From contig NZ_CP009518.1 in NCBI RefSeq assembly GCF_000970325.1, positions 1,426,001 to 1,490,000 on the forward strand: 64,000 bases of DNA, in the 5' to 3' direction. Both the position numbers and the translations under genes were made by a program. Of the stretch, positions 21,327-53,295 are shown in pieces (the first letter of the stretch is position 1; the number at the start of each line of letters is the position of its first letter). Origin of the DNA: Methanococcoides methylutens MM1 (GTDB taxonomy: Archaea; Halobacteriota; Methanosarcinia; Methanosarcinales; Methanosarcinaceae). The notes below the pieces were generated by a model. It was given only the letters and a program-made list of their open reading frames with translations. It was not told the origin of the DNA and searched no databases.

Positions 21327-21458
21327 CCAGATCACGCTTCTGGACGCGCCAGATCACGCTTCTGGACGCGCCAGATCACGCTTCTGGACGCGCCAGATCA
21401 CGCTTCTGGACGCGCCAGATCACGCTTCTGGACGCGCCAGATCACGCTTCTGGAGCGC
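21327..21458. repeat. Six tandem copies of a 22-bp hairpin unit
   Basis: Units begin at 21327, 21349, 21371, 21393, 21415 and 21437. Each carries CCAGA and TCTGG arms around a 7-base loop (TCACGCT), with ACGCG as linker. All six are identical until the last, which runs into the larger dispersed repeat. Because there are no spacers this is not a CRISPR array. Confidence 0.95.
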
Positions 21459-21497
21459 GGACCGAGGTGATGAGCTTCGCTCAACACCTCACTGGAA
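21459..21497. repeat. Dispersed hairpin repeat, copy A
   Basis: GAGGTGATGAGC (21464-21475) pairs with GCTCAACACCTC (21479-21490) around TTC, with one mismatch. Same sequence as the copy at 53.1 kb; related copies lie at 23.8, 28.1 and 33.1 kb. Confidence 0.9.
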
Positions 21498-23814: not shown

Positions 23815-23924
23815 CGCGCCAGATCTCGCTTCTGGAGCGCGGACCGAGGTGATGAGCTACGCTCATCACCTCACTAATAGCAAAACGGAAAATCAAGAGC
23901 AGAATCAAAACACCAAACCCAAAT
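23815..23924. repeat. Dispersed hairpin repeat, copy B
   Basis: Contains GCGCCAGA...TCTGGAGCGC and then a perfect 12-bp stem, GAGGTGATGAGC (23846-23857) with GCTCATCACCTC (23861-23872). The stretch from 23829 to 23924 is nearly identical to 28073-28168, forming direct repeats around the AT-rich gene between them. Confidence 0.9.
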
Positions 23925-23956: not shown

Positions 23957-24012
23957 GTGATGGAAACCGGTGAGATTCGAACTCCTAATATCTTCAATGT
24001 GAAGGCGACATC
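23957..24012 (-). pseudogene. Decayed 3' half of a tRNA-Val gene (old attachment site)
   Basis: On the minus strand GCCTTCAC, then AGTTCGAATCTCACCGG and TTTCCA, follow the tRNA-Val(UAC) gene at 53.2 kb in order but with many substitutions. CCTTCACATT suggests a valine CAC anticodon origin. Only the anticodon-to-3' half is present, the part duplicated when elements integrate into tRNA genes. Confidence 0.6.
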
Positions 24013-24208
24013 ATAAGAAATTAGATTGCAAGCCAACACATACAATCTAAAAATATCACTGCATCTTATTACATCCAATATGTAAATATTTACAATCATT
24101 TGCAATTTACGAAAGACAAAATTATTGCGAAGAGTTTATCATTATGAATATCATTTCCATATACATTAGCTCCTATTAAAATAATTTTTAATTTCTTTGG
24201 TTTGAATT

Positions 24209-26380: not shown

Positions 26381-28044
26381 TTATAGTTGGGTCTGGACAA
26401 AATGCATCATTAGACACTCGTTTTGTTCCAAAAATACGCATGATTCAAGATCATGATGTACAAGAACAAATGGACTGGTTAGCAAGTACTTTATCCAAAA
26501 AACTGGAACTACAAAACAAATTCACTTCTAAAAAAGAATGTACCTATGTTTGTAATTTAATAGTTTCTGAATATCTTTCTAAAATAAAGGCAAAAATCTC
26601 TTTATTTTCTTGGCAAGATTTATTACATTATCTTATTACTTCAAATGAAGCAATATGTCATCAGAGAGCATATTCATATCTTACAACTCCAACAATACTC
26701 GAATGCTTCTCTGATATAGAATCACTCGTAAATAGCGAAATTAAAAATAATTTCTTGATAGATTCAACTGCTTTATCTATACGTACTCTAATTGAGATAA
26801 TTGCTGCTGAACCACCTACTGGCAAAAAGCAAATAAATTTTTGTGAAATGGATGAACTCATAGCGATATCTTCTCAATTAATTAACTGGGCTATGATTAG
26901 TGATTATATTCACCAGGATCTAACTAGATATAGTATATATGTTTTGAACTCAGGCAGAATAATTGCAGAAGCTGTTGATCATGATGATATTTTTCTTCCC
27001 TTCCAAAAATCAAGATTGAGAGAAATATATGAGTCTTCATCAATAAATTTTGAAAATCATTTTGTGGAAGATATTTCCGATTTTGATGACCGTATCAAAC
27101 CATATGAAATTCCTTTCAAGGCAGAATTTGGCTTATCATATTCAGAAATCATTAAATTAACAGCTTTTTTAATTGATTTGGGAATTGAAAGAGAAAGTTC
27201 TTCTCCAAATATGCCTCTTTCTGAACTTAAAACAAGAATTAAAGAGGAACTTAATTGGGATACAGAACTAATTGAAAAATCGATAGAGTTGTTTTCTCTG
27301 AAAAATCGTAAATGTTGGGAAACTCCTCCTCTTGGATTTAATCTGAATGATATTTTGCCATGGAAATATAATAGAAGACTTTCATATGTTAGAAGGCCAC
27401 TTATTATTGGACCAGAACCAATGGATGACCCACTTGTATTTTGGGGAATACGGCATGTCGAAGAAGCTGCAAGATACCTGATAAATTTAGTTTTTAGTGG
27501 TAGATATAAAGTAAATCACGAGAAGTGTTCAGAAGAGATTAAAAAATTGATTGGATCATCCATCAATAAAAGTGGAACTGATTTTACTCTTGAGGTTAAA
27601 AATTGGTTTGAAACAAATACTGATTTTAAGACTTATTCTGAGGTTCCAATTGGACCAAATGAAATATTTCATTCAGACGTGGATCTCGGGGATGTTGATG
27701 TTCTCGCAATTGATGATGTGAATTATCAAATTTATTTAATTGAATGCAAGTGTATAAATTTCGGAAGAAATGCTTATGAAGTGGCTAATGAAGTTGAACG
27801 GTTTTTAGGCAATAGCAAAAGTAAAAATGGTTGGATGGCTAAGCATCTCAAAAGAGATGAATGGGTAAAATCTAATCTTAATTCTATAATCCATGAATAC
27901 AAATTAGAAAACAAAACTTTTCAAGTGAATAGCATATTTATAATTTCATCAGATATTTTGACTAAATATATACATGATACACTTTTTCCAATAGTGTCTT
28001 TTTCACAATTACTTAGAGATGGGATCTCAGCTTTACAAAAATGA
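26381..28044 (+). CDS. PD-(D/E)XK nuclease part of the frameshifted large protein
   Basis: Open in the shifted frame from 26381; an internal ATG at 26440 could give a separate 534-residue protein. The first 380 residues are helical with no known motif. Near residues 418-437 (counted from 26440) GDVDVLAIDD, then YLIECKC, is a PD-(D/E)XK nuclease core with the metal-binding Asp and the E-x-K pair; EVANEVERFLG follows as the usual helix. The domain resembles restriction-type nucleases at the end of large defence proteins. A role in defence against foreign DNA is inferred from the nuclease, the base composition and the island setting only. Confidence 0.6.
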
Positions 28045-31218: not shown

Positions 31219-31587
31219 TTCAAGTTGAAGGACAAAGAGTTCCGTAGACTCCGGAATTTCTTCAACTACTGCGAGGATGAGGAGATTAATTATGTTGCCG
31301 GATACGGCATACAGAAATGAAGGCACTTCATCAAAATTCAAAGATCTGGAGTTGTCGAGGTATATGTCAATGACGACGAAATGAAGGAAGCCTATGATGC
31401 CTGTCTGGAAAACATTAAGGCAGTCTTCCATTTACTTGCACACTTTAGAAGCAGGCCAACATACCTCCATAAAATGCTCCAGAGCTTCGATGAGAAGAAA
31501 ATTATCCTAGATTGGGATCTTGCCTTACACCACAGCTTCTTTTTTAGAAGAAACAAAATTACCTTTGAGATACATGCATACAACTAA
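31219..31587 (+). pseudogene. Remnant of an SSV-type integrase
   Basis: The translation FKLKDKEFRRLRNFFNYCED continues colinear with the intact integrase at 33.35 kb (residues about 38-160), with a TGA in place of Trp after GYGIQK and with the catalytic Arg region changed (HFRSRPTYLH). Both ends are missing. It marks an earlier, now deleted element related to the one at 33.2-53.3 kb. Confidence 0.9.
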
Positions 31588-33028: not shown

Positions 33029-33095
33029 GATTGTGATGGGGGCGGTGAGATTCACAACCCAGATACCGCTTCTGAACCACAGCCCGAGCTTTCTC
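33029..33095. repeat. Decayed attachment site and hairpin repeat
   Basis: GGCGGTGAGATTCACAACCC (33040-33059) is a degenerate copy of the tRNA-Val T-arm region. AGATACCGCTTCTG (33061-33074) then corresponds to the start of the dispersed hairpin repeat. This is an older att scar wedged between the AbrB-like relic and the present left attachment site. Confidence 0.6.
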
Positions 33096-33246
33096 GCTTC
33101 GCTCAACACCTCACTGACAGCAGAACGGAAGTCTCAATTGTAGAATCAAAACAGCAAGCCCAAAGCTCTTCATTTCGAAACCCAAAAGAATAGAAGTGTG
33201 GTGGGCCCGGTGAGATTCGAACTCACGACCCCCGCCGTGTAAAGGC
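33096..33246. repeat. Left attachment site: 151-bp direct repeat
   Basis: Identical over 151 bp to 53116-53266. It contains the 3' half of tRNA-Val (33199-33246, minus-strand sense, up to the anticodon loop) plus 103 bp of hairpin-repeat tail. The crossover took place somewhere within it. Confidence 0.95.
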
Positions 33247-34087
33247 TTCCGATAGCGTTTTTGGACCAAATTGCAAACCAAAAAACCAAGAACAGTATGC
33301 AACTCTTAACGAATTTTGGGAAGGACACAAAGAAGAATTCAATTCATGGTTGGATCTACGAGACATCATACCCTCCACGAAACAGTCCTACAGAAGTGCT
33401 GTCCCAAGATTCTTCGAAAAATATGTAGTCTACAAGCCAAAGGATCTTCGAGCTTTCAAGTTGAAAGACAAGGAATCTCGTGGGCTCCGAAATTTCTTCA
33501 ATTACTGTGAAGACGAAGATATTGATTATGTTGTCGGATACAGCATCGAGAAATGGAGGCGCTTCATCAAAATTCGAAAATCGGGAGTAACGGAAGTATA
33601 TGTCACTAATGACGAAGTGAAGGAAGCCTATGATGCCTGTCCGGACGACATGAAGACCATCTTTCAATTACTCGCATACTCTGGAAGTAGACTCACACAT
33701 ATCCATAAAATGCTCCAGAGCTTCGATGAGAGGAAAATTATCGTAGATGGGGATGTTGCCTACTACCCCACAGCTTCCTTCTCAGAAGGGACGAAAAACA
33801 CCTTTGAGGTCTTTTTCCCCACCACCTTCATCCCCAAGCTCAAGAGCATCAGTAAAGTTTACTGCTATTTCACCTTCATGAAGAAAATTCGCCATGGAAG
33901 AGTATCTGCGAAGACCATTCGCAAATGGCATCTCAACATAATGATAAAGGAAGGAGTCACCGAAAGCCTTGCAGACTTCATCCAAGGACGGGCTTCCATG
34001 ACCGTCGGAAGTGCCCATTACCTCAACAAGGTTGAACAGGCGAAGAACGAATACAGAAGGATTATGAGGAAGCTCTCGATAGTTTAA
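33194..34087 (+). CDS. SSV-type tyrosine integrase, N-terminus cut off by integration
   Basis: The conserved body runs from TTG 33350 (245 residues): an N-terminal SAM-like domain (SYRSAVPRFFEKYVV, LRNFFNYCED), then LAYSGSRLTHIHKMLQS with the first catalytic Arg, a C-terminal domain with VSAKTIRKWHLNIM, and SAHYLNKVEQAKNEY with the Tyr. The frame is open upstream through the tRNA half to TAG 33191-33193 (K-C-G-G-P-G-E-I-R-T-H-D-P), as in SSV-type integrases whose gene spans attP. No ATG exists in that stretch. In the excised circle the frame would continue to ATG 53112 through one TAG, giving 331 residues, the normal length of SSV-type integrases. Confidence 0.85.
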   Translation, partial: KCGGPGEIRTHDPRRVKASDSVFGPNCKPKNQEQYATLNEFWEGHKEEFNSWLDLRDIIPSTKQSYRSAVPRFFEKYVVYKPKDLRAFKLKDKESRGLRNFFNYCEDEDIDYVVGYSIEKWRRFIKIRKSGVTEVYVTNDEVKEAYDACPDDMKTIFQLLAYSGSRLTHIHKMLQSFDERKIIVDGDVAYYPTASFSEGTKNTFEVFFPTTFIPKLKSISKVYCYFTFMKKIRHGRVSAKTIRKWHLNIMIKEGVTESLADFIQGRASMTVGSAHYLNKVEQAKNEYRRIMRKLSIV

Positions 34088-39143: not shown

Positions 39144-40672
39144 TGATGGAAGAAAAAGTTGGATGGATCGATACAAATTTATCAGTAATCTCAAATAAAA
39201 TAACCGATGGTTCTCATAATCCTCCACCCAAATCAGAAGTTGGAGAACCGATGTTAAGTGCTCAAAACGTCTTCGATGACCATATTTTGTTTGAAGGGTA
39301 TAGACTAATTACAAGTGACAACTTTGAAAAAGAATACAAGAGAGCGAATGTTGAACCCGGAGATGTACTACTAACAATTGTAGGCACGATAGGACGTTCA
39401 ACGGTAGTCCCTGATAAAATAAGGAAGTTCACACTTCAGCGAAGTGTTGCATTAATTAAACCAAATACGATAAATTCACACTACATTTCCTATTATTTAA
39501 GATCTCCAAAAAGCCAGATATATTTCCAACAAAATTCAAAAGGTACAGCACAAAAAGGAATTTACTTAAATTCATTAAAAAAGTTACCAATTTCGTTTCC
39601 ACCCCTCCTCGAACAACACGCTATCGTCTCCAAAATCGAACAACTCTTCAGCGACCTCGACAACGGCATTGCTAACCTCAAATTGGCCCAAGAACAGCTC
39701 AAGGTGTACCGTCAGGCGGTGTTGAAAAAGGCCTTTGAGGGGGAACTTACGAGGGAATGGCGGGAACAACAGACTAACCTCACAGATGCGGAAGATTTAC
39801 TCGAGCAGATTCGGTTGGAAAGGGAAGAGAATTATAACAAGAAGCTTGATGAGTGGAAAGGAGCAATAAAAGAATGGGAATCTGCGGGAAAGGAAGGGAA
39901 AAAACCCAGCAAACCAAAAAAAATCAAGAAAACTGAAAGATTTACAGAATCCGAATTGGTTGACTTGCCAAAGCTATTAGAGAACTGGGCATGGATTAGG
40001 TTAGAGGAAATCTCAAATAAAATAACCGATGGTTCTCATAATCCTCCACCCAAATCAGAAGTTGGAGAACCGATGTTAAGTGCTCAAAACGTCTTCGATG
40101 ACCATATTTTGTTTGAAGGGTATAGACTAATTACAAGTGACAACTTTGAAAAAGAATACAAGAGAGCGAATGTTGAACCCGGAGATGTACTACTAACAAT
40201 TGTAGGCACGATAGGACGTTCAACGGTAGTCCCTGATAAAATAAGGAAGTTCACACTTCAGCGAAGTGTTGCATTAATTAAACCAAATACGATAAATTCA
40301 CACTACATTTCCTATTATTTAAGATCTCCAAAAAGCCAACCCTACTTCCAAAATCATTCAAAAGGCACTGCCCAAAAAGGAATTTACTTAAATTCATTAA
40401 AAAATTTGCCAATTTCACTTGCTCCCCTCCCTGAGCAACAAGCCATCGTAACCGAAATCGAAACACGGCTTTCGGTTTGTGAGAAAGTCGAACAGGACAT
40501 CGAAGAAAACCTCGAAAGGGCCGAAGCATTGCGACTGAGTATCTTGAAAAAGGCGTTTGAAGGGAAGTTACTCAATAAGAGGGAGCTTGAGGAAGTTCGC
40601 AATGAAGCGGATTGGGAACCTGCTGAGGTATTGCTTGAACGAATAAAGACCGAAAAAGCGAATAAAAAATAA
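39143..40672 (+). CDS. hsdS: Type I restriction enzyme, S (specificity) subunit with two identical recognition domains
   Basis: A 509-residue S subunit with two target-recognition domains, each followed by a conserved helix (LEQHAIVSKIEQLFSDLD and PEQQAIVTEIETRLSV). The two recognition domains are encoded by a perfect 330-bp direct duplication (39187-39516 and 40009-40338), while flanking sequences differ. Each domain reads half of the bipartite site, so a symmetrical (inverted-repeat) recognition sequence is expected. The first domain starts almost at the N-terminus. The ATG at 39143 overlaps the hsdR stop. Confidence 0.93.
   Translation: MMEEKVGWIDTNLSVISNKITDGSHNPPPKSEVGEPMLSAQNVFDDHILFEGYRLITSDNFEKEYKRANVEPGDVLLTIVGTIGRSTVVPDKIRKFTLQRSVALIKPNTINSHYISYYLRSPKSQIYFQQNSKGTAQKGIYLNSLKKLPISFPPLLEQHAIVSKIEQLFSDLDNGIANLKLAQEQLKVYRQAVLKKAFEGELTREWREQQTNLTDAEDLLEQIRLEREENYNKKLDEWKGAIKEWESAGKEGKKPSKPKKIKKTERFTESELVDLPKLLENWAWIRLEEISNKITDGSHNPPPKSEVGEPMLSAQNVFDDHILFEGYRLITSDNFEKEYKRANVEPGDVLLTIVGTIGRSTVVPDKIRKFTLQRSVALIKPNTINSHYISYYLRSPKSQPYFQNHSKGTAQKGIYLNSLKNLPISLAPLPEQQAIVTEIETRLSVCEKVEQDIEENLERAEALRLSILKKAFEGKLLNKRELEEVRNEADWEPAEVLLERIKTEKANKK
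39187..39516 (+). repeat. 330-bp direct repeat within hsdS, copy 1
   Basis: Identical to 40009-40338 with an offset of 822 bp. It encodes KITDGSHNPPPKSEVGEPML and the rest of the recognition domain. Confidence 0.97.
40009..40338 (+). repeat. 330-bp direct repeat within hsdS, copy 2
   Basis: Second perfect copy. Sequence on both sides diverges at once (Q-I-Y-F-Q-Q-N against Q-P-Y-F-Q-N-H after the repeat), so it is a domain replacement rather than a gene duplication. Confidence 0.97.
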
Positions 40673-42233: not shown

Positions 42234-42677
42234 ATGTCAAACGGAACAACGATGAACAATAACATCGAGATGATTCTCGGGTTTCGCTTCAAAAATAGAG
42301 ATTTCTTGGACCAAGCCCTCGTACACAAAGGCTACTCGAATGAACATCCTTGTGATGATCAAAGTGAATTTCAAACAATTGGAGACGCGGTCCTGAAGCT
42401 TGTTTTGACGGAATTATTGATTGAGAAGGGGCACAAAACCGGAGGAGCAATAACTCCAAAAAGAGTGGAACAAGAGAAAAAAGAGGGACTCGCTAAAGTC
42501 GCTCGAAACCTTGGAATCGGTCCCTTCATTAAGCTCGGAAATGGGCAAATACTGCAAAATCATGGTGAAAGCGATCATGTTTTAGCGGAGACTCTCGAAG
42601 CAATCGCCGCTGCCATCTACTTTGATGGAGGATTCGATAAAACCAAGCATACAATGAAAAAATGGTTTGATTCCTGA
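42234..42677 (+). CDS. Stand-alone RNase III catalytic domain protein
   Basis: A 147-residue protein with the RNase III signature in the form QSEFQTIGDAVLKLVLTELL (catalytic Glu and Asp kept) and a second motif LAETLEAIAAAIYFDGGF, where Glu replaces the usual first Asp. No double-stranded-RNA-binding domain follows. It could cut structured RNA as a dimer. The ATG with GGAG upstream lies 47 bases after hsdM, so it may share that operon. RNase III is uncommon in archaea; here it is element-borne, and an antiviral or plasmid-control role is an inference. Confidence 0.8.
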   Translation: MSNGTTMNNNIEMILGFRFKNRDFLDQALVHKGYSNEHPCDDQSEFQTIGDAVLKLVLTELLIEKGHKTGGAITPKRVEQEKKEGLAKVARNLGIGPFIKLGNGQILQNHGESDHVLAETLEAIAAAIYFDGGFDKTKHTMKKWFDS

Positions 42678-42688
42678 AAGCCTCTCCA

Positions 42689-42799
42689 TCACTCTGATGC
42701 ACTTTTAACTTTCTCGATCCGATCCTGTTCTTCCCATATGTCCCTGTACTTGTACAATGTACTTGCAGGAACATTCATCACCCTCGAGATTTCTGACCA
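42689..42799 (-). pseudogene. Duplicated 3' end of the serine recombinase gene
   Basis: On the minus strand it reads WSEISRVMNVPASTLYKYRD, then WEEQDRIEKVKSASE and stop, matching the last 36 residues of the recombinase at 43.4-44.1 kb. Together they bracket the TATA-binding-protein gene as diverged direct repeats. Confidence 0.9.
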
Positions 42800-43419: not shown

Positions 43420-44073
43420 TCACTCTGAAGCACTATTTACTCTCTCAACCCGGTCCTGCTCTTCCCATTTGTCTCTATACTTGTACAATGTGCTCGCAGG
43501 AACGTTCATCACTCTCGAGATCTCGGACCACGTCAAGCCCTTATCTCTGTACTTCATGACCTCTTTTTTGTTCGGCTCTTTGGTAGGCCTTCCCCACGTC
43601 TTCTTCTCCTTCCTGTGTCGCTCTATACCCACCTTTATCCGTTCCCTCATTATCCTCTTTTCATTCTCCGCAACCCATCCAAAGATGGATATCAACAGCT
43701 TCCTGTAATGAGGATCACCGGATGTGGACCATGCCTCACTGGGGCTCAATGAGACCACCCTGACGCCTTTATCTTCAAATTCCATGATAAGATTAAGGGT
43801 GTTGATGAAAGTCCTCCCAAGCCTCGAGATTTCGAACAGATAGATCGTCTCTACTTCATGAGACTCGATATATTTCAGGAGCTTTTTGAACCCAGGTCTA
43901 TCGGGAGCCGGAACACTCCCACTGATACCTTCATCAAAAAATATTTGTTCCGGAGGAATGCCTTTGTTTTTGAGCTGGACTATTTGGGTGTCGATGTTCT
44001 GATCCTTCGTACTTGTCCTTGCATATCCCACTGAATTTTTTGAAGATTCCATTAAACATATTTTGTGTAACAC
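43420..44073 (-). CDS. Serine recombinase (resolvase/invertase family)
   Basis: A 217-residue site-specific recombinase. The catalytic Ser lies in VGYARTSTKDQN, followed by DEGISGSVPAPDRPGFKKLL, IYLFEISRLGRT with the conserved Arg residues, and a C-terminal helix-turn-helix (TWSEISRVMNVPASTLYKY). It could invert, resolve or integrate DNA within the element. The start is ATG 44052 (MESSKNS) or ATG 44073. Its 3' end is duplicated 0.7 kb downstream. No inverted target sites were recognised. Confidence 0.9.
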   Translation of the reverse strand: MLHKICLMESSKNSVGYARTSTKDQNIDTQIVQLKNKGIPPEQIFFDEGISGSVPAPDRPGFKKLLKYIESHEVETIYLFEISRLGRTFINTLNLIMEFEDKGVRVVSLSPSEAWSTSGDPHYRKLLISIFGWVAENEKRIMRERIKVGIERHRKEKKTWGRPTKEPNKKEVMKYRDKGLTWSEISRVMNVPASTLYKYRDKWEEQDRVERVNSASE

Positions 44074-48575: not shown

Positions 48576-51272
48576 TTAGCCAGAACTTGAAGTTGAAGAA
48601 GTTTCAAACGACACAACCCCAATTGTCAATTCCTCAAAATCGTTCACGAATTCCCCATCAATTAGTATTTTAGAGTCTTTTCCAAAAGGTAAAATAACAA
48701 GATCTCCGGGATAATGACTGGTGATTTTGGTTTTGCTTGGGAAATATGTGCAATTTCTGTTTTTACCTTTCACCACGATGTCCTTCCTCTTCAGTTCTGA
48801 TTTGAAAAGTCCCATTAGAGCATCACAAATATTTTTAACAACTGTCGCCTTCATCGATTCAATAAAAATCCATATTCGATAGCCACTTACGGTTTTTTCG
48901 ACGAGACTTGGGAACTGCATGGCTTCAAAATAACCATGCATTAAAGACATATGCAATTCTTCTGCAAACTCAAAACAGATCCAATCGACCTCATTGATAT
49001 TCGAAAGAGTTATGGCCTCAACCAACTTTTCACCTTCGAAGTGTTTTTGGAGGATATCGTCGGAAAGTTTAGTCCCAGAGATTTCATCTTCATCGAACAT
49101 AAATCGACTTTTGTTCTTGATGATGTGGTTACGGATTAGAGAACTTCTCGAATATTCTTTGTATTCATTCTGATGAAAAGTACCAGTTATATCTTTAATA
49201 GCTCTAATACCTGGTACTTTTGGTATGAACGAATACAAAGGTTTTTTATAATGTAGTGCTGCAAGCAGTTTTTCCACTGGTTTTCTAACATATATGATAT
49301 TTGGCTTTGTTATGCATTCCTCTTCGACATTGACCTTTTTGACCTTCTTCATGCCTTTTTTTGGAGGTTTTTCAATTTCGATGGAACGATTATAACCATA
49401 TTTGATGACGTTTTCGCAATCATCCGAAGTCACTCCGAGACAAATTACAAGAGAGGACACCTTACCTTCCGGATCCTTAACCCGCGACCATGCCTGCCAT
49501 GTATCATTACAAGTCACCTCATACCTGAGTTTTTGACTCTCCTCATGTGAATCGGTTACCGTATCATATGCATTTGCGGGTTTATGGGCCAAACCAACTA
49601 CAATGGCAACTCTCGCATAGCAAGACACTCCCATCAACTCAGATGAACCATAATATTCGACTTTGTGGGGATGATTTGCCTTTTCCAAAACCTTTTCTAT
49701 TTCCTTTGCCTGCCCTGCATTATTGACAATTATTAGACAATTCCCGTCTCCATAAAGCTCAAGATATTGAATTATCTCAGAGGTGATCTCATCCATATGT
49801 TTTTCAATTGCATATGGTCCACGGGTACTGTATTTTTTCTTATCGGGGAAAATGAACATTTTTTCGTTGGTCTTTTTGGGGTCACCGCCCTCCCCAAAGG
49901 TGATTTTTTTGAGATTATCTTTATGATCCAATAGCAGCTTACTGAAATCGTAGCTCCCTTGGGTTGCAGAGGTGAAAATTATACGTTTTTTCTCGCTTTT
50001 ATGTATATTCTTTATGAAAATTGCCAACAATTCATCAAACAATGTGTCGACCGAAGAGACATTAACAAGTATCCACTGTCCAATTGGCTGCGCGTTTACA
50101 GAAATTGTTTCAGAGGTTATTATTTTTAGGATATCATATAGAGGCAGTATATATTCCATTTGGAGATCAATTTCAGGATCGATAACCATTTCCTCAATTT
50201 TTTGGAATGCTTTTACAATATATCTTGGAGTTACTTGATGGCGATTTGGAATCGGATGGCTGAGATGTTCTTCGAAGTAGTTGTCCTTAGAAGCTTTCTC
50301 AATAGCCTTATTTTTGGCCTCAATAAGGTCATTTTGTTCAAGAAGTGATTTGAAGTGTTCCACTATTTCCCAAATAAATTTGTATTTTTTCATATTCTTC
50401 AATGCATCATATACACCAAAATCAAAATCAGAAACCTTTTTTTCATCGATAGTGGCAATCCTGAAATCGACTTGTGGTTTATCTTGGAGCATATGGCTTT
50501 CGTCAATGATGATATTTTTAGAACTCGATATCAAGTCCAAAATCCATCTCGGAAGTCGATATTGATAATCGTTGGTAAAAGAAGATAGTAAAACAGCCAC
50601 TAGCTTTTGTGTGGTTAAAGTAATACCATCTAGTTTTTGATCTCTGACCCCTTTAAGATAAACTTCTTTCACTTTCTCAAGATAGGTACCTCCACTGGAA
50701 GTATTGCCTAAAACATCATGACGTATTAATGTAGTGACCGGACACTCGGCATGGTATTCACATTCTAAGCAGTTCTTTGGTAACCGTAGGAAAGGTAATT
50801 TTTTAAGAGCCGGGTATTTTGCAATCCTTTCTTGGTTAATGATGCACTTACGATTGGGTTCCACATGGATTATATTCGGTTTTCTCGAACAGAATTCTGC
50901 AAGATCGGCTCCTGCTGTTTGGGTTAGAATGTTTGTTGTTGGAGCGATTAGTACAAAGGTTTCTCCAAGTTCTATTAATGTCAATAATAGGGATGTAGTA
51001 CATCCGCAACGTGTTGTTTTATGAAGAATAAGAGGTCCATTTGGATGATTCCAATATATTTCATAAGCAGTTATAGTCCTTATGTCGCCCGTTTTTGGAG
51101 GACTTGTTTTGATGGGGAGCTGTTTGGGTTTTATTTCATATGCAACTTCAAGTGGAAGTGGTTCTGGAGGGTTGTAGAGATATGATATTCCGGATTCAAC
51201 CCGATTGCTTTTTTGTTTTTCGAGCAAACGTTCATATACAATAGACTCACACGTAACTGTTTGAGGAGACAT
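48576..51272 (-). CDS. SF2 helicase-like protein with degenerate primase-like C-terminus
   Basis: The start is ATG 51272, with AAAGGA upstream and outside the overlapping small gene. The N-terminal motor has HKTTRCGCTTS near residue 85 where Walker A is expected, with Cys in place of the catalytic Lys. Four clustered Cys (CLECEYHAEC region) may bind zinc or iron-sulfur. Motif II IIIDESHML and IIFTSATQG are intact. The C-terminal 150 residues resemble archaeo-eukaryotic primase domains (VSGYRIWIFIES, DLVILPFGKDSK), but the D-x-D metal site appears as CFEF. Probably the replication protein of the element; catalysis is uncertain. Confidence 0.65.
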   Translation of the reverse strand: MSPQTVTCESIVYERLLEKQKSNRVESGISYLYNPPEPLPLEVAYEIKPKQLPIKTSPPKTGDIRTITAYEIYWNHPNGPLILHKTTRCGCTTSLLLTLIELGETFVLIAPTTNILTQTAGADLAEFCSRKPNIIHVEPNRKCIINQERIAKYPALKKLPFLRLPKNCLECEYHAECPVTTLIRHDVLGNTSSGGTYLEKVKEVYLKGVRDQKLDGITLTTQKLVAVLLSSFTNDYQYRLPRWILDLISSSKNIIIDESHMLQDKPQVDFRIATIDEKKVSDFDFGVYDALKNMKKYKFIWEIVEHFKSLLEQNDLIEAKNKAIEKASKDNYFEEHLSHPIPNRHQVTPRYIVKAFQKIEEMVIDPEIDLQMEYILPLYDILKIITSETISVNAQPIGQWILVNVSSVDTLFDELLAIFIKNIHKSEKKRIIFTSATQGSYDFSKLLLDHKDNLKKITFGEGGDPKKTNEKMFIFPDKKKYSTRGPYAIEKHMDEITSEIIQYLELYGDGNCLIIVNNAGQAKEIEKVLEKANHPHKVEYYGSSELMGVSCYARVAIVVGLAHKPANAYDTVTDSHEESQKLRYEVTCNDTWQAWSRVKDPEGKVSSLVICLGVTSDDCENVIKYGYNRSIEIEKPPKKGMKKVKKVNVEEECITKPNIIYVRKPVEKLLAALHYKKPLYSFIPKVPGIRAIKDITGTFHQNEYKEYSRSSLIRNHIIKNKSRFMFDEDEISGTKLSDDILQKHFEGEKLVEAITLSNINEVDWICFEFAEELHMSLMHGYFEAMQFPSLVEKTVSGYRIWIFIESMKATVVKNICDALMGLFKSELKRKDIVVKGKNRNCTYFPSKTKITSHYPGDLVILPFGKDSKILIDGEFVNDFEELTIGVVSFETSSTSSSG

Positions 51273-51336
51273 ATTTATTTCCTTTTGTAGTGTGTGGGGC
51301 AATACACACTGCAAATCTTTTATTTTGAAATAGTTA

Positions 51337-51495
51337 TTATTCAATCATTTTCGGCATTTTTGAAAGCTTCGAGAGCTGACTCTGGACCAAGTCTTCAATA
51401 TATTTGCTTCTGGGGGTGTGAGTCCGTTCCAGCAAAATATCGAGTCTATTTACGGTTTCTTGTTCAATTGAGAGCATAATTTTCTTCTTTGTCAT
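51337..51495 (-). CDS. Ribbon-helix-helix DNA-binding protein
   Basis: A 52-residue protein from ATG 51495 with GGTGA six bases upstream. KKKIMLSIEQETVNRLDILL gives the DNA-contacting strand and first helix, and TPRSKYIEDLVQSQLSKL the turn and second helix of a CopG-type fold. It is transcribed just ahead of the helicase gene and is the likely copy-control repressor of that operon. The promoter region upstream (51500-51560) holds three TATAGC repeats and GGAG-TATAG-CTCC. Confidence 0.8.
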   Translation of the reverse strand: MTKKKIMLSIEQETVNRLDILLERTHTPRSKYIEDLVQSQLSKLSKMPKMIE

Positions 51496-52435: not shown

Positions 52436-52769
52436 CTTTTCCCTCACACATTGTTTATCATTCCAATCCTTTTTTTATTGAACTTGTTTTATGAAATTAC
52501 GTAAACCGTGTTTGGGGATTTTTAAAAGTACTGAATCATGTATAAATGTTATGCATAAAAACGATATATTTTGACGAAGCTTACTTTCCAATTGGAGGAT
52601 CTATTGTAAAGAAAACCCCCCTCCAAAAGCTCCTCACAGCCTCCTCAAGGACTTGAACCTTTCTTTAGGTATTTCCCCCATGGGTCACATCACAAGAGAT
52701 CTCAAAGAGGACGAGGGTAAATTATACAATAAGTGTACACTATATACCATAATTGGGGAGGGAAAAGCC

Positions 52770-53078
52770 ATGGAACCTATTGGAAAGTCCAAAATCACAG
52801 GGCATCGGCCTAACAAGGATACCACATATCCACTGATCCGATTACCAAAGTCGTACTCACACCTTATCGGAGAAACAGCCCATTTTTTTGAAATCGACAA
52901 CAATGGAACTCCTTTATTAGTAATTTCCTTGGACGAAGATTTCGACGGAAACATCAAAATTGTACAATCCACACCATCAGACCTTGAAACCCGCCTGGAA
53001 TCCCTAGAAAAACAGATGAAATTACTTGAAAAATCGCTACAGACCACCGGCTCTTCCCCTCGAAAACCAAAAGAATAG
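52770..53078 (+). CDS. AbrB-like DNA-binding protein with C-terminal coiled coil
   Basis: 102 residues from ATG 52770 with GGGGAGGG upstream. Residues 1-50 (MEPIGKSKITGHRPNKDTTY, then IRLPKSYSHLIGETAHFFEI) follow the swapped-hairpin AbrB/SpoVT pattern. Residues 70-92 are a leucine-patterned coil (LETRLESLEKQMKLLEKSLQ). The stop is TAG, and the same frame remains open beyond it across the hairpin repeat and the attachment site. A truncated copy lies beside the left attachment site. Probably the regulator of the element and possibly of its integrase. Confidence 0.7.
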   Translation: MEPIGKSKITGHRPNKDTTYPLIRLPKSYSHLIGETAHFFEIDNNGTPLLVISLDEDFDGNIKIVQSTPSDLETRLESLEKQMKLLEKSLQTTGSSPRKPKE

Positions 53079-53115
53079 CCAGATCACGCTTCTGGAGCGC
53101 GGACCGAGGTGATGA
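53079..53115. repeat. Dispersed hairpin repeat, copy D (left part)
   Basis: CCAGA and TCTGG arms at 53079-53095, then GAGGTGATGAGC (53106-53117) pairing with GCTCAACACCTC (53121-53132). ATG 53112-53114 within it is in frame with the integrase of the excised circle. Confidence 0.85.
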
Positions 53116-53266
53116 GCTTCGCTCAACACCTCACTGACAGCAGAACGGAAGTCTCAATTGTAGAATCAAAACAGCAAGCCCAAAGCTCTTCATTTCGAAA
53201 CCCAAAAGAATAGAAGTGTGGTGGGCCCGGTGAGATTCGAACTCACGACCCCCGCCGTGTAAAGGC
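53116..53266. repeat. Right attachment site: 151-bp direct repeat
   Basis: Identical to 33096-33246. It includes the 3' half of the intact tRNA-Val gene and carries TAG 53211-53213 in the AbrB/integrase frame. Confidence 0.95.
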
Positions 53267-53295
53267 GATGTCATGACCGGCTAGACCACGGGCCC
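53219..53295 (-). tRNA. tRNA-Val (anticodon UAC)
   Basis: On the minus strand the acceptor arm GGGCCCG pairs with CGGGCCC, the anticodon loop is TTTACAC (anticodon TAC), the T-arm is GTGAG-TTCGAAT-CTCAC, and the discriminator A is followed by an encoded CCA. It is intact and serves as integration site of the 20-kb element, whose right end lies in its anticodon loop. Confidence 0.95.

Follow-up and report, generated by a model that had tools for sequence, protein, structure and literature searches.

A candidate structured, non-coding repeat unit of tRNA 3' trailers in the archaeal family Methanosarcinaceae

Introduction

The 178-bp repeats of Escherichia coli tyrT, known together with the rtT RNA, are non-coding units that lie 3' of a tRNA gene and each carry a copy of the 3' end of that tRNA, and the bacterial REP and BIME sequences are short imperfect palindromes which lie near gene ends and are alike within a genome. 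Methanosarcinales tRNA genes are listed among the targets of SSV-type (suicidal) integrases (PMC8371274), and integrative elements are known to leave partial tRNA genes (PMC9897764).

Here we describe a repeat from a 64,000-nucleotide stretch of the genome of Methanococcoides methylutens MM1 (assembly GCF_000970325.1, contig NZ_CP009518.1, positions 1,426,001 to 1,490,000 of the forward strand), which is referred to below as the window. Like the tyrT/rtT repeats, the archaeal units stand in tandem or singly behind a tRNA gene with a copy of that tRNA's own 3' end, and their RNA would likewise be freed by tRNA processing, a prospect to which the strand bias of G-U pairs lends indirect support. 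Unlike them, they are archaeal, occur at several different tRNAs, measure 80-165 bp, contain two covarying stem-loops and are also found, apparently stranded, 3' of protein genes; in seven carrier loci the matches above the Rfam gathering scores were to tRNA and rRNA only, with no tyrT/rtT or other relevant family among them. With REP and BIME sequences the repeat shares its short imperfect palindromes near gene ends and its within-genome similarity, but it is archaeal, has few copies, is tied to tRNA genes and carries tRNA 3' ends on its flanks.

The window also holds an integrated element whose attachment site, as with SSV-type integrases, lies inside the integrase gene, which is split on integration into tRNA-Val; unlike at SSV-type sites, crossing over takes place in the anticodon loop, and no need for the repeat is seen, since there are integrase relatives without it. 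The partial tRNA 3'-end copies near an intact gene resemble those left by integrative elements (PMC9897764), but the intervening DNA here may measure no more than about 80 bp and is conserved and structured. A literature search, which included repeats in these genera, found no description of this archaeal repeat; it is apparently undescribed, a negative search of this kind being weak evidence of newness.

Occurrence of the repeat

An earlier note, made from the letters of the window, had listed five copies of a dispersed hairpin repeat, and all five were recovered (Table 1), with chance excluded by a search of the host's own genome (E = 1.6e-90 to 3.4e-22). Elsewhere the host genome contains three further clear copies (442.4, 1539.3 and 1716.9 kb), together with diverged relatives at 47, 546 and 1577 kb, all three separated by about 340 nt from a tRNA-Cys gene. 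The copy at 23.8 kb has the same position in nine genomes of the host genus, the copies at 21.4 and 28.1 kb have no tRNA segment within 300 nt, and the copy at 33.1 kb is preceded by a second tRNA-Val 3'-end copy (33034-33061). Read on the RNA strand, the 53.1 kb locus runs from the tRNA through a 79-nt trailer and the hairpin to CCAGAAGCGTGATCTGG, and its trailer has homologues both at tRNA-Val(CAC) and in further species. Arrays of the first stem-loop, shorter than that in Table 1 or diverged, also stand ahead of copies in three other loci (L046, L048, L181).

Table 1. Coordinates of the repeat copies, tRNA features and integrase parts within the window.
Feature	Position	Strand	Remarks
Array of six 22-bp units, CCAGATCACGCTTCTGGACGCG	21327..21459	+	The repeat's first stem-loop in tandem
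Repeat copy	21438..21494	+	Between divergent 276-aa gene and acs-like gene
Repeat core	23820..23879	+	Directly 3' of 629-aa acs-like gene; perfect stem 23846-23857/23861-23872
Decayed tRNA-Val remnant	23967..24014	-	Beyond 23.8 kb copy; scores 22 in local alignment (500 shuffles, at most 14)
Repeat copy without first stem-loop	28073..28123	+	28 nt 3' of ORF 26440-28044; perfect stem with paired change
Remnant of second integrase of same family	31219..31518	+	See last section
Degraded repeat copy	33060..33119	+	Adjoins left attachment end
Left attachment repeat	33096..33246	.	151 bp identical to 53116-53266
Archaeal integrase, catalytic part	33209..34087	+	PF16795, 1.7e-40; phrog_5127
Probable integrase N-terminal part	52653..53078	+	Homologous to part fused to integrase in L091; TAG just before repeat
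Repeat core beside tRNA-Val(TAC)	53080..53139	- (inferred RNA strand)	+ is the hairpin orientation in the earlier note
Right attachment repeat	53116..53266	.	End in anticodon loop of tRNA-Val; overlaps second half of 53.1 kb hairpin copy
tRNA-Val trailer between hairpin and tRNA 3' end	53140..53218	-	Sequence homology
tRNA-Val(TAC)	53219..53295	-	Target of 20-kb integrated element

Of 111 genomes from the host's family, 42 were matched by a covariance model of the core, and its 16 matches in a 294-genome sample of the phylum all fell within that family (Methanosarcinaceae). Each carrier genome has 1 to 13 matches, mostly at tRNA loci, and viral contigs, searched with a 29-letter pattern from the core, contained no exact copy of it. 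A convergent tRNA lies no more than 420 nt away for 73 of 110 copies, and most copies lie 5-80 nt 3' of a tRNA gene for Val, Pro or Ile, with a weaker set at Cys, so that copies at other tRNA genes, for which the earlier note had advised a search, do exist. Within a tRNA class and genus the spacing is conserved (about 71 for Pro; 139 or 115-117 for Val-TAC). Across many species of the host genus the copies are placed 79-83 nt 3' of tRNA-Val or tRNA-Ile, always oriented against the tRNA, or else 2-35 nt past stop codons. Nearly all copies in other genera are 3' of tRNA-Val (TAC, CAC, GAC), tRNA-Pro(GGG) or tRNA-Ile(GAT), with a lower-scoring set 3' of tRNA-Cys(GCA). In two loci (L187, L183) the tRNA-Cys relatives have tRNA-Cys on one side and a 5S rRNA gene on the other and lie on the rRNA strand, where transcription is therefore expected. 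The rRNA operons concerned have two 5S genes, which flank tRNA-Cys and the diverged unit copy.

Unit structure and conservation of the hairpin

In the tRNA sense, the unit consists of the tRNA, a trailer of 5-80 nt, a 12-bp hairpin, CGCG, a nearly invariant second stem-loop (CUCCAGA-AGCGUNA-UCUGGG) and, often, a duplicated tRNA 3' end, which spans the T-loop to CCA and comes from the same tRNA as the adjacent gene. This distal tail is recognisable (at least 14 of 20 positions identical) in 40 of the 73 tRNA-adjacent copies, although the majority of distal tails in the host genus have decayed, and when its own tRNA was set against a different end of the same isotype, the own tRNA gave the better fit 264 times and the worse fit 24 times. 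No full cloverleaf relic of a tRNA was seen in folds of single units, and pairing of the CGCG linker with the acceptor strand of the tail, judged by eye, was inconsistent.

The compensatory changes proposed for the two arms of the hairpin are real in the window, where the perfect 12-bp stem of the 23.8 kb copy (GAGGTGATGAGC/GCTCATCACCTC at 23846-23872) and that of the 28.1 kb copy (GAGGTTTTGAGC/GCTCAAAACCTC) differ by paired changes; however, not every stem there is intact, with an A.A mismatch in the 21.4 and 53.1 kb copies and a partly broken stem at 33.1 kb. In an alignment of 95 copies fitted to the covariance model (A2), in which related copies are counted as separate, 84.8% of cells are paired, and double-change cells number 108, against a mean of 37 after shuffling and at most 44 in slid controls; 10 of 15 pairs, and 9 of the 11 modelled hairpin pairs, show changes on both sides. 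In an independent MAFFT alignment of 25 units in the tRNA sense the hairpin was 83.6% paired and 7 of its 12 pairs had changed on both sides; the corresponding values were 98% and 2 of 6 pairs for the second stem-loop, with which an alternative pairing preferred by RNAalifold (CGCGCT/AGCGTC) competes.

The strand on which the stem tolerates wobble pairs differs with the neighbouring gene. Near tRNAs, 36 G-U stem pairs fall on the tRNA strand versus 5 on the other (23 versus 5 as distinct events), whereas 3' of protein genes the direction is reversed (2 versus 5), a contrast with a Fisher p of 0.0025 for cells and 0.013 for distinct events. Such a bias is the expected trace of RNA that is read together with the neighbouring gene, and the wobbles on the tRNA strand, together with the covariation, strongly support conservation of the hairpin, most likely as RNA. 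Transcription-linked mutation, rather than selection on shape, could produce part of the wobble bias, and this too requires transcription of the tRNA strand.

Proposed nature of the unit

The reading we favour, and which we hold to be rather probable, is that the repeat is a short non-coding unit of certain tRNA 3' trailers, a structured repeat of the tyrT/rtT kind within one archaeal family. Its anatomy, its link to tRNA genes, its covariation and the absence of frame constraint described below are observed directly; that the unit is transcribed as a tRNA trailer and works as a folded RNA is what we infer from these sequence patterns. The RNA may be released as a small RNA by tRNA 3' processing, like that of E. 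coli tyrT/rtT, or the unit may act as a 3'-end or processing element. More tentative is the broader proposal that a gene-free archaeal module of 80-165 bp enters the T-loop of several different tRNA genes by insertion or copying, gives rise to a second tRNA 3' end and yields a structured small RNA with a tRNA-like CCA tail, which would form a class previously undescribed.

If the favoured reading is true, a structured RNA is attached to several tRNA transcripts in one archaeal family and, via the tRNA-Cys relatives, also to rRNA operons, and a spare tRNA 3' end lies downstream of it. The units would then provide a test case for the origin of tRNA-trailer repeats such as those of E. coli tyrT and for whether their RNA acts. 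They also carry a caution, in that open frames through repeats that flank tRNA genes can mimic integrase N-termini.

Origin of units at tRNA genes

Tandem units recur with periods of 163, 102, 81 and 105 bp, direct repeats of the tRNA 3' end are present at both unit ends, and no recombinase gene is contained in the tandem units (81-165 bp). Similarity is higher between paralogues of one genome (0.888) than between copies that share neither genome nor locus (0.828), a difference reached in 0 of 1000 permutations, and may reflect exchange by recombination or a recent spread. Tandem arrangement, a tail that tracks its own tRNA and within-genome likeness together suggest that the units arose at the tRNA 3' end, through duplication or insertion, with subsequent recombination among copies. 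Among tRNA-Pro loci, L166 has the unit and a second trailer resembling the sole trailer of L232, from which the unit is absent, and this comparison likewise indicates a duplication or an insertion there. Loss via recombination between direct repeats would leave the same pattern, and insertion and loss are indistinguishable because genomes that lack the full unit retain a single trailer, in some cases with a decayed hairpin (L231 and L234 have one; L233 has none).

The same features could be explained by a minute integrative element, in which the 80-165 bp unit itself is mobile and is inserted at the tRNA T-loop by a recombinase acting in trans, so that the two tRNA 3' ends would serve as its attachment sites and the hairpins as signals for the recombinase or for folding. 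The direct repeats on both sides, the tandem units, the pair of sites with and without the unit (L166 versus L232) and the homologous bodies at Val, Pro, Ile and, in diverged form, Cys tRNAs all agree with this. However, by inspection the bodies at each tRNA seem to follow lineages when species are compared, as in old vertical inheritance, the unit is gene-free and a recombinase was not identified, the crossover of the local integrase is in the anticodon loop and not the T-loop, and the G-U strand bias favours RNA. We regard a mobile unit as unlikely, though as the strongest of the rival readings.

Relation to protein genes and to the integrase

Several copies of the host genus have no tRNA nearby (3' of the acs-like gene, 3' of a radical-SAM gene and upstream of the acs-like gene), and copies 3' of protein genes are read here as stranded units. 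The repeat might instead be an ordinary REP-like extragenic palindrome, found mostly between convergent genes and acting as a 3'-end stabiliser of mRNA or tRNA, whose link to tRNA genes would be partly a side effect of integration hot spots. Several copies do lie just past stop codons between convergent genes, and at the acs-like locus the hairpin is kept across nine genomes at an identity of 0.79, compared with 0.43 for the 100 nt that follow; yet the hairpin identity barely exceeds that of four-fold sites (0.75), the copies per genome are few, and in other genera nearly every copy is 3' of a tRNA and bears that tRNA's own tail. We hold a REP-like palindrome to be improbable.

The region 33.2-53.3 kb is a 20-kb element integrated in tRNA-Val(TAC), and the earlier note had proposed that the repeat is the N-terminal coding part of its integrase family, kept both as a hairpin and as protein and left behind at each integration. 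The catalytic part of the integrase does continue in frame out of the tRNA segment. The segments 52653-53266 and 33096-34087, taken together, place the probable N-terminal part, the repeat and the catalytic part in one frame with only two TAG interruptions, and since the genome has pylS, reading of these TAG codons as pyrrolysine is conceivable. Likewise, a relative (L164/L087) has a 411-codon frame which runs from two tandem units into the integrase. The proposed frame (A-S-G-A-R-T-E-V) is indeed open at the start of every copy in the window, and it is in phase with the tRNA-derived G-E-I-R-T segment in the three copies that have this segment; however, two of these three, at 33.1 and 53.1 kb, contain an in-frame TAG ahead of the segment.

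Wider comparison gave no sign of selection on the reading frame. From the hairpin anchor to the tRNA core, pN/pS (the form in which the suggested dN/dS check was run) is 1.02 in the host genus and 0.91 in other genera, not below two shifted frames, and entropy is flat across codon positions (0.555/0.465/0.553). At least four copies (L069, L070, L071, L081) have lost the frame through indels of 1 or 2 nt, and the phase from hairpin to tRNA GEIRT is 0, 1 and 2 in 9, 6 and 4 copies, phase 0 being commoner at tRNA-Val(TAC) loci and other phases occurring at tRNA-Pro and tRNA-Ile loci. Openness alone tells little, as within the core the proposed frame is open in 41 of 46 copies and the antisense frame in nearly as many (38 of 46). 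In this larger set of copies, then, frame breaks were found, and unpaired arm changes, which had been named alongside them as counter-evidence, were not.

The integrase relatives point the same way. Named relatives occur in Methanolobus, and in L091 the integrase is fused directly, via the tRNA core, to an N-terminal part matching ORF 52653-53078; no hairpin stands between the N-terminal part or upstream flank and the tRNA core in L091, L083, L043 or L044. These relatives give no support to the hairpin as the N-terminus of the integrase, the likely N-terminal part in the window being a separate ORF, and in view of the relatives without a hairpin the repeat was most likely picked up from the tRNA flank. 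Mobile elements integrating at the anticodon loop of tRNA-Val would have acquired the flanking unit, which would account for a unit at either end of the 20-kb element. Of these two copies, the one at 53.1 kb overlaps the attachment repeat at its end and the one at 33.1 kb lies next to it. Deposition at integration holds only inside this island, whereas five of ten genomes of the same genus have the repeat without any detected integrase relative, so that repeat and integrase are uncoupled. As a general rule integrase coding is refuted, and we give it very little credence in any form, although phase 0 at tRNA-Val(TAC) and the 411-codon frame make the coding impression understandable.

An intrinsic-type transcription terminator of tRNA genes, which the fixed short distance of the hairpin 3' of these genes might recall, is likewise most improbable, since the hairpin is followed in the 25 aligned units by the highly conserved CGCGCTCC, continuing into GAAGCG and the tRNA tail, with no T-run.

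Further observations on the integrated element

The integrase remnant listed in Table 1 is the trace of an earlier integration. Within the element, a perfect 300-bp direct repeat (39187-39486 and 40009-40308) lies in an apparent type I restriction specificity gene, and an RNase III-like gene (42234-42677) is immediately 3' of the restriction-modification genes. Of the two copies of a 111-bp direct repeat (42689-42799 and 43420-43530, 85%), the second overlaps the end of a gene for a DNA-invertase-like recombinase, and a large protein encoded at 48576-51344 has an AEP-TOTE primase-like match (9e-08).
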